Shown here: piece after piece, positions 30,592 through 33,506 of the stretch
Layout of the letters: each line of letters starts with the position of its first letter
Position numbering within the stretch: position 1 is the stretch's first letter
NCBI RefSeq assembly: GCF_029277445.1
Contig: NZ_CP119566.1
Coordinates: 1,862,001 to 1,926,000 of the forward strand
Direction of reading: 5' to 3'
Source: Pararhizobium qamdonense
GTDB taxonomy: Bacteria; Pseudomonadota; Alphaproteobacteria; Rhizobiales; Rhizobiaceae
Length of the DNA: 64,000 nucleotides
Made by a program: the position numbers and the translations under genes
Notes under the pieces: generated by a model
Told to the model about the DNA's origin: nothing
Database searches by the model: none
Seen by the model: only the letters and a program-made list of their open reading frames with translations

Positions 30592-30885
30592 TCAGAGCGT
30601 CTTGCCGATATCGGTCAGGAACGCGGCGATCGTGTCTTCGTTCCGCTTGTAGAAAATCCACTGGCCAACACGTTTGGTGGTGACGAGATCGGCGCGCTGC
30701 AGGATCGACAGATGGCCCGAAACCGTCGATTGCGACAGGCCGCAGCGTTCGAACTGGCTGGCGCAGACCCCCATGTCCAGCGGATGATGCTGGGTGGAAA
30801 AATGCGCTTCCGGCTCCTTCATCCAGCCAAGCATCTCGATGCGCTTGGGATGTGCCAGGGCTTTGAGGATTTCGTCTTTATCCAT
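30592..30885 (-). CDS. ArsR-family regulator
   Basis: This 97-residue winged-helix repressor has DEILKALAHPKRIEMLGWM, the recognition helix QSTVSGHLSILQRADLV, and the wing TKRVGQWIFYKRN. A CGLS Cys and GVCAS Cys could sense thiol-reactive compounds. ATG 30885 is preferred, as family members start close to DEILKAL. In Sinorhizobium the ArsR gene SMc01226 holds the same place beside the AbcR RNAs. Confidence 0.9.
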   Translation of the reverse strand: MDKDEILKALAHPKRIEMLGWMKEPEAHFSTQHHPLDMGVCASQFERCGLSQSTVSGHLSILQRADLVTTKRVGQWIFYKRNEDTIAAFLTDIGKTL

Positions 30886-30989
30886 TGCCGTTTCTGTATC
30901 GCTAAATTCCGATGTACCGATATGTAAATCGGCCAAAGCCGATATTCAAGTCACGACTTCGTAAAAAATGCATCATGGAAAATCTGGGC

Positions 30990-31106
30990 AAAAAAAGAGG
31001 GCCACTGAAGAACAGGGCCCTTTGAGATGTGAAGGTTAAAACCTCCAGAGGGGAACAGCTGCTGCGATGGTACTGGGAGGAAGAAGACCATCATGTGCAT
31101 CAGCTG
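30990..31106 (-). ncRNA. abcR: AbcR-type small RNA, copy A (downstream copy)
   Basis: On the minus strand a 5' hairpin (stem at 31087-31092 and 31066-31071, 15-nt loop with CCTCCCA) is followed by CCCCTCTGGAGG. A GGGCC...GGCCC terminator running into seven T residues (30990-30996) closes the transcript. The C-rich unpaired motifs are anti-Shine-Dalgarno seeds typical of AbcR RNAs, which repress ABC-transporter mRNAs with Hfq. The 5' end is approximate. Position between the ArsR gene and lsrB matches Sinorhizobium AbcR1/AbcR2. Confidence 0.88.
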
Positions 31107-31192
31107 GATTGGATATGGGAAAGCGCCGCCGAAACTTCAATGGCTCGCGCCAAGAATTATTGCAACTATAGGTATGTCTTTGAAATCTGGGC

Positions 31193-31310
31193 AAAAAAAG
31201 AGGGCCACAAGAAAAACTTGGGCCCTTTATAGTTATGAAGGTAATTAAACCTCCAGAGGGGAACAGCTGCTGCGGTGGCACTGGGAGGAAAAAAGCCACC
31301 AAGATGCATC
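31193..31310 (-). ncRNA. abcR: AbcR-type small RNA, copy B (upstream copy)
   Basis: Second tandem copy with the same plan. The stem GGTGGC (31274-31279) pairs with GCCACC (31295-31300) around a 15-nt loop with CCTCCCA, and the terminator stem GGGCC/GGCCC ends in seven T residues (31193-31199). Two base pairs of the first stem and the inner terminator stem differ from copy A by compensatory changes, which supports both RNA folds. A candidate promoter lies upstream (TTGCGA near 31340, CATACC near 31322). Which copy is AbcR1 or AbcR2 cannot be assigned here. Confidence 0.88.
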
Positions 31311-31521
31311 AGCTGCAGTCGGTATGATGGTTTTTTGGGCCGTTCGCAATCATTTAATATGCATGACAGCCATGTGCCGTACGCACCCCTGCGCAATTTT
31401 CAGGCGATTTCAGGTTGTTGCATCCCCCGCAAAACTGGGGATTTGGCAAAAAATCAGTTAAAACAACAGTTTGTCTAGAAGAAAAGTGAAGAGCATTTTT
31501 TGTGCAGGTGCGAAGGCCGTA

Positions 31522-32418
31522 TCAGAAGGCCCAGTTGCGGGCCTTTGCAACGATGAAATCACGGAAGACTTTCAGCTTGGCGGCGTTCTTCATCTCGTCG
31601 GGATAGCAGAAATAGGTGTCGAAAGACGGAATCTCCGCACCGATCGGAAGTTGAATCAAACCGGGATCGCGGCCGACGATATAGTCCGGCATCATGGCAA
31701 TGCCGATGCCGAGCAGGCAGGCGCGCTTGATCGAGGTCTGGCTGTTGATCTGCAGGTGCGAGGGGCGGGGATTGTCGGAATCCCGGCCGGCAATCTCCAG
31801 CCAGTTGACGTCGAGCAGATAGTTGGGTGCCGGTTCGCCGAAGGTGATGATGCGGTGGTTGTCGAGATCCTCGATCGACTGCGGCTCGCCATACTTGTTG
31901 ATATAGGAGGGGGCCGCGTAGACATGCATGTGCACGGTGAACAGCTTGCGCTGGATGAGATCGGACTGCTGCGGCTGGCGCAGCCGGATGGCGCAGTCGG
32001 CATGGCGCATGTTCACGTCCAGCTCCTCGTTGTCGAGGATCAGCTGGACCTGCATGTCGGGATAGAGCGACAGGAATTCCTGCACCTTGTCGGTCAGCCA
32101 GCCCTGGCCGAGACCCACCGTCGTGGTGATGCGCAGCTTGCCGGACGGCTTGTCGGTGTTCTCGGTCAGCTGGACCTTGACGCTTTCCAGCTTCATCAGA
32201 ACTTCATGGGCGGTGCGATAGAGGATTTCGCCCTGTTCGGTGAGGATCAGGCCGCGGGCATGGCGATGGAACAGCTTGATGCCGACATCCTGCTCCAGCG
32301 ACGAGACCTGGCGGCTGATGGCCGATTGGGAAAGGTGCAGCTTGTCGGCCGCATGGGTGAACGATCCCGCTTCCGCCGCCGCATGGAAAATGCGCAGTTT
32401 GTCCCAGTCTAGCGGCAT
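31522..32418 (-). CDS. lsrB: LysR-family regulator LsrB/VtlR
   Basis: The 298 residues have a winged helix (HAAAEAGSFTHAADKLHLSQSAISRQVSSLE) and effector domain. Location between the AbcR RNAs and trxB identifies it as the orthologue of S. meliloti LsrB and Brucella/Agrobacterium VtlR. Those proteins activate an AbcR RNA and influence oxidative-stress and LPS genes. ATG 32418 (MPLDWDKLRIF) is the conserved start. It is encoded on the same strand as the RNAs, with trxB upstream. Confidence 0.93.
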   Translation of the reverse strand: MPLDWDKLRIFHAAAEAGSFTHAADKLHLSQSAISRQVSSLEQDVGIKLFHRHARGLILTEQGEILYRTAHEVLMKLESVKVQLTENTDKPSGKLRITTTVGLGQGWLTDKVQEFLSLYPDMQVQLILDNEELDVNMRHADCAIRLRQPQQSDLIQRKLFTVHMHVYAAPSYINKYGEPQSIEDLDNHRIITFGEPAPNYLLDVNWLEIAGRDSDNPRPSHLQINSQTSIKRACLLGIGIAMMPDYIVGRDPGLIQLPIGAEIPSFDTYFCYPDEMKNAAKLKVFRDFIVAKARNWAF

Positions 32419-32531
32419 GGTGTCCCCCAATAGGTGCTCGTGGCGGAAAACGGCCTCGTGTTTTCCGCCATAAGGCTGATTGTCTGTTCCCACTCAGGAG
32501 CGGCTTTAACCACTCCCATTCTTCGCGGCTT

Positions 32532-33506
32532 CTATTCGGCCGCAATTGCGACAGGCATATGGCCCGCCAGATATTTTTCGGCTTCAAGAGCGGCCATGCA
32601 GCCCATTCCGGCAGCGGTGATCGCCTGGCGGTAGATATCGTCGGTCACGTCGCCGGCGGCGTAAACGCCAGCCACGTCGGTGGCCGTCGAATCCGGCGCC
32701 GTCCACAGGTAACCGTTCGGCTTCAGGCGCAGCTTGTCCTTGAAGAGCTCGACTGCCGGCGCATGTCCGATTGCCACGAACACGCCGTCGATCGGCATGT
32801 CGCTGACGGCACCCGTCCTGGTGTTGCGCAGCTTGACGCCGCTGACGGAAGCCGGCATCGGGGGCTTGGCCGGGCTACCTGTATATTCCGTCACTTCATG
32901 ATCCCAGATGATCTTCACGTTCGGTTTGGCAAACAGCCGCTCCTGCAGGATCTTTTCGGCGCGGAAATGATCACGGCGATGCACCACCGTCACGGTCTTC
33001 GCAAGGTTGGACAGGTAGAGCGCTTCCTCGACGGCCGAATTGCCACCGCCGACCACGATCACGTCCTTGTTGCGATAGAAGAAGCCGTCGCAGGTGGCGC
33101 AGGCCGAAACGCCAAAGCCCTGGAAGGCCGGTTCGCTTTCGATGCCCAGCCATTTCGCCTTGGCGCCGGTGGCGATGATCAGGACGTCTGCGGTCCAGTC
33201 GGTGCCGCTGTCGGTCTTGAGCTTGAAGGGGCGCACCGACATATCGACATCGGTGACGAGGTCGTTGACGATCTCGGCGCCGACATGCTGCGCCTGCTTG
33301 AGCATCTGCTCCATCATCCACGGGCCCTGGACCGGATCGGCATAGCCCGGATAGTTCTCGACATCTGTGGTGATCATCAGCTGGCCGCCCTGTTCCATGC
33401 CGGCGATCAGAACCGGATTGAGCAGCGCGCGCGCCGAATAGATGGCGGCGGTATAACCGGCAGGTCCTGAGCCGATGATGAGAACTTTGGTGTGTCGGGC
33501 AGTCAT
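32532..33506 (-). CDS. trxB: Thioredoxin reductase
   Basis: This 324-residue FAD flavoprotein transfers electrons from NADPH to thioredoxin. It has the FAD fold GSGPAGYTAAIYSARA, the redox dithiol CATC (SACATCDGFFYRN near residue 145), and the NADPH fold GGGNSAVEEALYL. The C-terminal GDVTDDIYRQAITAAGMGC is also present. It lies upstream of lsrB on the same strand and is divergent from the Lrp gene. Confidence 0.97.
   Translation of the reverse strand: MTARHTKVLIIGSGPAGYTAAIYSARALLNPVLIAGMEQGGQLMITTDVENYPGYADPVQGPWMMEQMLKQAQHVGAEIVNDLVTDVDMSVRPFKLKTDSGTDWTADVLIIATGAKAKWLGIESEPAFQGFGVSACATCDGFFYRNKDVIVVGGGNSAVEEALYLSNLAKTVTVVHRRDHFRAEKILQERLFAKPNVKIIWDHEVTEYTGSPAKPPMPASVSGVKLRNTRTGAVSDMPIDGVFVAIGHAPAVELFKDKLRLKPNGYLWTAPDSTATDVAGVYAAGDVTDDIYRQAITAAGMGCMAALEAEKYLAGHMPVAIAAE

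Follow-up and report, generated by a model that had tools for sequence, protein, structure and literature searches.

Between an ArsR-type regulator gene and lsrB, the DNA analysed here (a stretch of 64,000 nt from Pararhizobium qamdonense, NZ_CP119566.1, positions 1,862,001 to 1,926,000; hereafter the window) carries two similar minus-strand copies of a short element, which raises the question of what they encode and what distinguishes them. A sequence-only reading had described two copies of about 117 nt at 30990-31310, taken them for orthologues of the AbcR1/2 small RNAs of Sinorhizobium and proposed a covariance-model search as a check.

Identity and genomic context of the two RNAs

A covariance search of the whole window detected both copies as members of the ar15 family (RF02345) on the minus strand, at 31196-31314 (104.3 bits, E 7.2e-21) and 30993-31105 (102.7 bits, E 1.9e-20), against a cut-off of 40. 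Both matches cover the full model length, 1-112. These two RNAs are the only Rfam matches listed for the window at the gathering threshold, in a listing that omits two lower-scoring overlapping matches of the same clan. NfeR1/alpha-r14 (ar14, RF02344) is a separate family of anti-SD sRNAs with the motif in every loop; no member of it was detected when the window was searched at the gathering threshold or when 30900-31500 was searched up to E 1. A plus-strand CPEB3 ribozyme candidate scored 14.1 bits against a threshold of 35 and was taken as noise. With their full T-runs the copies measure 123 and 117 nt, unlike the 121 and 114 nt given for S. meliloti in passages of PMC8844928. The span proposed from sequence thus starts correctly but ends 5 nt short. 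The two RNAs and the neighbouring genes are as follows.

31193..31315, minus strand: abcR1, the lsrB-proximal ar15 sRNA, 123 nt with the 7-T run; RF02345 match and fold, 5' end inferred from the model
30990..31106, minus strand: abcR2, the arsR-proximal ar15 sRNA, 117 nt with the T-run; RF02345 match and fold, 5' end likewise inferred
30592..30936, minus strand: ArsR-family regulator gene, downstream of abcR2
31522..32418, minus strand: lsrB/vtlR homologue, LysR-type regulator; ATG start assumed, ORF open from a GTG at 32493
32532..33506, minus strand: trxB, thioredoxin-disulfide reductase, upstream of lsrB; TIGR01292 over cut-off

We scanned GTDB species genomes with the LsrB protein and kept the best 80 of 497 relatives, all of them Rhizobiales records, whose lsrB homologues are 86-100% identical over the best segment. 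Among these 80 loci, TrxB lies upstream of lsrB on the same strand in all 80, and ar15 lies downstream in all 80; 77 loci have two copies at the cut-off, and three (L055, L075 and L079) have a single one. An ArsR gene was found downstream by tblastn in 71 loci and not found by tblastn in the other nine. In the 77 two-copy loci, the copy starts are 191-815 nt apart (median 206). The order trxB-lsrB-ar15 holds throughout these loci (80 of 80), which identifies the copy next to lsrB as AbcR1 and the copy next to arsR as AbcR2. The tandem genes of the window sit between an arsR-type gene and lsrB/vtlR, as in Sinorhizobium and Agrobacterium. Passages of PMC3712013 indeed place AbcR1/2 of S. meliloti in tandem between SMc01226 (ArsR) and lsrB, as the earlier reading had stated, and those of PMC7486931 describe the order trxB-vtlR-abcR1-abcR2-arsR in A. 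tumefaciens, where the pair adjoins vtlR (atu2186). The locus further resembles S. meliloti AbcR1/AbcR2 (alpha-r15; SmrC16/SmrC15) in RNA family, three-hairpin fold, two anti-SD motifs, tandem order, and LsrB-type versus RpoH1-type promoters, as these are presented in parts of PMC3712013 and PMC8844928. The proposed orthology is accordingly upheld by the Rfam family, the position between the ArsR-type gene and lsrB, the order in relatives and a tree with weak forks.

We hold with high confidence that 31193-31315 and 30990-31106 encode the trans-acting sRNAs AbcR1 and AbcR2, each with its own promoter and terminator, which very probably mute nutrient-importer genes and are probably controlled by LsrB and RpoH1. 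This analysis established for the pair the RNA family and its structure, the synteny and orthology, and the promoter motifs. The locus is an ordinary, well-supported further example of a known system.

Structure and covariation of the RNAs

Folding of both copies revealed three hairpins per RNA: a long 5' hairpin, then UUCCCCUC followed by the middle hairpin, and finally a GGGCC/GGCCC terminator that ends in a U tail. The elements assigned to each copy are listed below.

31280..31294, minus strand: abcR1 apical loop, 15 nt, anti-SD1 UCCUCCC (sequence and fold; motif name from parts of PMC3712013 and PMC8844928)
31256..31263, minus strand: abcR1 anti-SD2 UUCCCCUC, between hairpins 1 and 2 (sequence)
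31193..31226, minus strand: abcR1 intrinsic terminator (fold)
31072..31086, minus strand: abcR2 apical loop, 15 nt, anti-SD1 (sequence)
31048..31055, minus strand: abcR2 anti-SD2 UUCCCCUC (sequence)
30990..31021, minus strand: abcR2 intrinsic terminator (fold)

The apical stem has 6 bp, GGUGGC/GCCACC in one copy and GAUGGU/ACCAUC in the other, and closes a 15-nt loop that holds CCUCCCA in each; the single-sequence fold of abcR2 puts two weak extra pairs inside its loop. The 6-bp first stem and 15-nt loop noticed earlier are thus real, but the stem is only the upper half of a longer hairpin, with CAGCUG/CAGCUG plus UGC/GCA at its base. The CCCCTC motif and the GGGCC/GGCCC terminator with seven T are present in each copy as described, the T-run being CUCUUUUUUU in both; a simple terminator scan found no instance of its pattern at either copy. 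The folding z-score is -5.99 for 31193-31315 (0 of 200 shuffles fold as well) and -4.43 for 30990-31106 (1 of 200). The anti-SD1 context is UUCCUCCC in the window as against CUCCUCCC in S. meliloti. Across the tandem-locus copies of the window and the best 80 of 497 relatives, both TTCCCCTC and the anti-SD2 UUCCCCUC occur in 159 of 159, and CCTCCCA is kept in 79 of 81 copy-1 and 50 of 78 copy-2 sequences.

In the top stem, both partners of two pairs are exchanged between the copies (G-C/A-U and C-G/U-A), in agreement with the compensatory changes reported from the sequence. The inner terminator stem, CUG/CAG in one copy and CAAG/CUUG in the other, also keeps its pairing; its length differs as well, so that this change is not a strict column-by-column compensation.

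The claim that the RNA structure is under selection was examined on 63 of 134 distinct homologues (from 159 copies), a hand-picked set, mostly copy 1, with most Ensifer and Shinella copy-2 sequences left out. In this set 96.9% of cells pair (shuffled mean 94.3; reached by 0 of 500 shuffles), 60 cells are changed on both sides (20.1 when shuffled; 0 of 500), and eight pairs are changed on both sides (4.7; 1 of 500). The covariation score is 0.114, compared with 0.074 for shuffles (0 of 500) and 0.013-0.067 for slid structures, and the real structure exceeds every slid control on each measure. Further pair types show no excess (18 versus 19.1 shuffled; 468 of 500). In the top stem all cells with letters pair, and four of six pairs are changed on both sides; the A-U pairs of the window abcR2 at stem-1 alignment positions 17/45 and 20/41 occur in two of the 63 rows each. 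The terminator is less regular (90.7% paired), in our reading in part through misalignment of its variable tip. As the shuffles ignore relatedness, the covariation supports selection on the structure, as claimed, rather than measuring it.

Promoters of abcR1 and abcR2

Pattern matching placed a distinct type of candidate site upstream of each RNA.

31360..31374 (G000:C1:1893360-1893374), minus strand: LsrB/VtlR-type box CATGGCTGTCATGCA upstream of abcR1; pattern match, with the 13-mer ACATGGCTGTCAT starting at -61
31113..31141, minus strand: RpoH1-type promoter ATTGAA-N17-CCATAT upstream of abcR2; a close, inexact match to the CTTGAA-N16-CCTATAT published in PMC8844928

At the motif level, the locus thus combines a putative LsrB-type box for abcR1 with a putative RpoH1-type promoter for abcR2. 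The box carries one mismatch: it begins ACAT, so that its first base differs from the published GCAT-N3-TG-N3-T and, being A, from that of S. meliloti. Among the 81 abcR1 promoters of the window and the best 80 of 497 relatives, the exact consensus lies near -61 in 38, the consensus with its first base free in 75, and a CAT-N7-ATG dyad in 78. The LsrB-type box occurs in only 9 of the 78 corresponding abcR2 promoters. Conversely, an RpoH1-like promoter is found before 56 of 78 abcR2 and none of 81 abcR1 genes, the pattern being absent from 22 of the abcR2 set. Shuffled promoters, which preserve base composition only, gave about 0.3 or fewer matches per set. A generic promoter scan yielded no sigma-70 site for abcR1 and two promoter-like sites upstream of abcR2, neither of which is the conserved RpoH1-type site.

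By analogy with promoter assays in S. meliloti, in which LsrB activates abcR1 and RpoH1 drives abcR2 (passages of PMC8844928), abcR1 is probably activated by LsrB at the candidate box 31360-31374, and transcription of abcR2 from 31113-31141 probably depends on the heat-shock sigma factor RpoH1. Of the two A. tumefaciens genes, only abcR1 is activated by VtlR (parts of PMC7486931); equivalent control in the window strain is a prediction. The same parts of PMC7486931 report that neither AbcR of S. meliloti 1021 responded to LsrB, contrary to PMC8844928.

The nine boxed abcR2 promoters (L072, L074, L076, L078 and L083-L087) belong to R. tropici, R. rhizogenes, R. lusitanum, R. multihospitium and unnamed relatives. 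Within the R. tropici/rhizogenes group, abcR2 has the LsrB-type box in place of the RpoH1-like promoter and clusters with abcR1 in the tree. Box and joint grouping are as would be expected if abcR2 had been replaced by a copy of abcR1 together with its promoter; the sequences suggest an apparent switch of promoter through conversion or a second duplication.

Proposed mechanism and targets

The features of the pair enable us to propose a putative model of its action. Under the control of LsrB, the product of the adjoining gene, for abcR1 and of RpoH1 for abcR2, each RNA would expose an anti-SD1 loop (UCCUCCC) and a single-stranded anti-SD2 (UUCCCCUC). With the help of Hfq, both motifs would pair with ribosome-binding sites on mRNAs for ABC transporters and metabolic functions, and this pairing would block translation. 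Work in S. meliloti and A. tumefaciens is the source of the predicted activation by LsrB and RpoH1, of the dependence on Hfq and of the silencing of targets; for S. meliloti, passages of PMC8844928 describe silencing of transporter and metabolic mRNAs by AbcR1/2 through two anti-SD motifs. The genome holds one hfq match (109.4 bits), and Hfq binding of the window RNAs is predicted on the same analogy.

In an exploratory comparison of predicted pairing with three seeds and uncorrected p values, anti-SD2 pairs better with 25 solute-binding-protein gene starts than with 42 control ORFs of the window (p 0.0019), and anti-SD1 does not separate the same two sets (p 0.09 and 0.13). The 25 genes comprise 9 of 18 PF13458 matches (11 over cut-off) and all 16 of 16 PF00496 matches, with starts set by a crude rule, several of which look wrong. 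Two Peripla_BP_6 genes carry CTGGGAGGAG (L122) and GGGAGGAG (L119) at the ribosome site.

The earlier reading had suggested that divergence outside the loops may give distinct targets. Against this, passages of PMC8844928 ascribe the specificity of the S. meliloti pair largely to differential expression, with the bases flanking anti-SD1 as a possible contributor. The different promoter types of the window locus fit that view.

Relationship of the two copies and alternative readings

Over 119 nt, six other lsrB-proximal copies have exactly the sequence of the window abcR1. Among the best 80 of 497 relatives, Rhizobium sp. Root483D2 comes closest, with 98.7% identity across 626 nt of intergenic sequence. 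In a tree built from 136 sequences and 118 columns with many weak forks, from which three divergent paralogues of the same genome (L005-L007) were left out, the window abcR2 falls in an 11-row set of copy-2 sequences only (support 98/90). The window abcR1 lies among copy-1 rows, and its smallest well-supported set (50 rows) comprises 41 copy-1 and 9 copy-2 sequences. The copy labels need six changes on this tree, compared with 45 when shuffled. Three second copies, L077, L080 and L088 (by record name Agrobacterium vitis, Rhizobium oryziradicis and Allorhizobium terrae), are highly diverged abcR2 genes of 45-51 bits whose anti-SD1 hairpin is apparently remodelled.

Three other readings of the locus were weighed against the AbcR1/AbcR2 pair. 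An 88-aa open frame with a TTG start does exist on the minus strand at 31036-31302, and the region might on that ground be taken to encode a small protein. Over 89 codons, however, the frame is lost in six of seven relatives: L011, L013, L015 and L024 have internal stops, and L010 and L014 lack the stop of the window frame and run on. Only L009 keeps the stop, and this locus, 98.7% identical to the window over 626 nt, is nearly the window itself and hence not independent. The RNA-family score and the covariation explain the conservation of the region, and we regard a protein-coding role as next to impossible. It is also very improbable that the copies arose by a recent local duplication or gene conversion in this lineage instead of being ancient AbcR1/AbcR2 orthologues. 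Such an origin would fit TTTTTTTGCCCAGATTT, which is common to both copies (30980-30996 and 31183-31199), reaches 10 nt beyond the terminator T-run and is possibly a remnant of the duplication unit; it would also have a parallel in the R. tropici/rhizogenes group, where the two copies cluster with each other and each has an LsrB-type box. Against it, copy 1 of the window is identical to copy 1 at six other loci, copy 2 lies within the copy-2 set of the weakly forked 118-column tree, and the promoter types of the two window copies differ.

Ancient orthologues could still be functionally redundant, acting through near-identical anti-SD motifs on one target set so that gene dosage alone matters. 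Both anti-SD1 and anti-SD2 are common to the two copies, and large overlapping target sets are described for S. meliloti in passages of PMC8844928. We nevertheless consider redundancy unlikely: the promoter types differ in most related loci, which points to different expression times rather than dosage, and livK is a target of AbcR1 only in S. meliloti, according to parts of PMC3712013. The AbcR1/AbcR2 pair offers a clean comparative case of sibling sRNA divergence, with nearly the same targeting motifs and different promoters.

Further AbcR and ar14 genes and the LsrB-type box

The genome as a whole (G000, contigs C1 to C4) holds seven ar15 matches at E under 0.001: four strong ones (the window pair and one each on C3 and C4) and three weaker ones, two of which exceed the cut-off; five more at E 0.4-5 were disregarded. 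The six over the cut-off compare with three AbcR homologues given for S. meliloti 1021 in parts of PMC7143759. The AbcR genes at C3:96597-96705 (L002, 114.3 bits) and C4:192191-192300 (L001, 115.1 bits) outscore the window pair and lie within an 88%-identical 1.68-kb stretch that includes an ORF without a Pfam match. A supposed phasin gene beside them was dropped, the neighbouring ORFs being without a Pfam match. Both genes carry the exact published LsrB consensus at -61/-62. The divergent AbcR-like RNAs L005 (C2:141728), L006 (C1:1006287) and L007 (C1:788306) score 43.8, 41.2 and 35.3 bits; their anti-SD1 loops are altered, and the 110 nt upstream hold no LsrB-type box.

The ar14 family has nine matches in this genome, all outside the window, seven of them over the cut-off. 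An LsrB-type box stands 91-93 nt before the model start of four (C2:860295-860420, C2:308891-309014, C3:66840-66965 and C4:207490-207615) and is absent from the other five, of which three are over the cut-off. At the 5' side, all four boxed genes have an additional hairpin-like stretch with a fourth CCUCCUCCC / CCTCCTCCC. The relaxed box pattern CATRNCTGNNNTGCR occurs 22 times in the genome, compared with five for the reversed control, and seven of the 22 precede sRNA genes. Besides the one before abcR1, these boxes lie at C3:96751 and C4:192130 before the two further AbcR genes, and at C2:860499, C2:308798, C3:66748 and C4:207692 before the four ar14 genes. Because the pattern was drawn from AbcR promoters, the ar14 matches alone are independent of it.

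The count was extended to the 11 genomes with a complete list of boxes, namely this one and 10 of 12 others (G117 and G045 left out). Of 158 boxes, 32 precede the model start of a same-strand ar14 or ar15 match by 59-94 nt (17 of 34 ar15 and 15 of 50 ar14 matches), and none lies 40-120 nt beyond an ar14/ar15 3' end; in two of the genomes, G015 and G033, no such box precedes ar14/ar15. The reversed pattern matched 56 times in the same 11 genomes, so many of the remaining boxes may be chance. None of the eight tandem-carrying genomes among the 11 has an abcR2 with a box.

The LsrB-type box before two more AbcR genes and four ar14 genes suggests that one regulator may drive at least seven anti-SD RNAs in this genome. 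We give an even chance to the fuller reading of these sequences, in which LsrB would be the master switch of a multi-contig anti-SD sRNA set (abcR1, the AbcR genes on C3 and C4, and four ar14 genes, two on C2 and one each on C3 and C4). abcR2, alone of the four strong AbcR genes, would then belong to the heat-shock circuit, the R. tropici/rhizogenes abcR2 would have switched to an LsrB-type promoter, and the four boxed ar14 RNAs would bear the extra 5' hairpin with its fourth CCUCCUCCC. As passages of PMC8844928 and PMC10746234 report that LsrB activates AbcR1 and NfeR1 in S. meliloti, the multi-copy pattern would extend a known circuit to extra copies. A limited literature search found nothing relevant on an AbcR3 or on AbcR copies on plasmids. 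If the multi-box pattern and the abcR2 promoter switch are true, it becomes testable whether sRNA families expand under one regulator for dosage or for target splitting.

Members of alpha-r15 are always multi-copy in Rhizobiaceae and Brucellaceae, according to passages of PMC3712013. Across the family, ar15 gave a match at E 0.001 or better in 76 of 101 genomes and over the cut-off in 65 of 101; within the genus, 26 of 26 genomes, this one among them, have a match over the cut-off. Longer tandem arrays occur in other family genomes, with four ar15 genes at L101 (G100 C11:655844-656570) and three at L110 (G046 C1:771577-772107).
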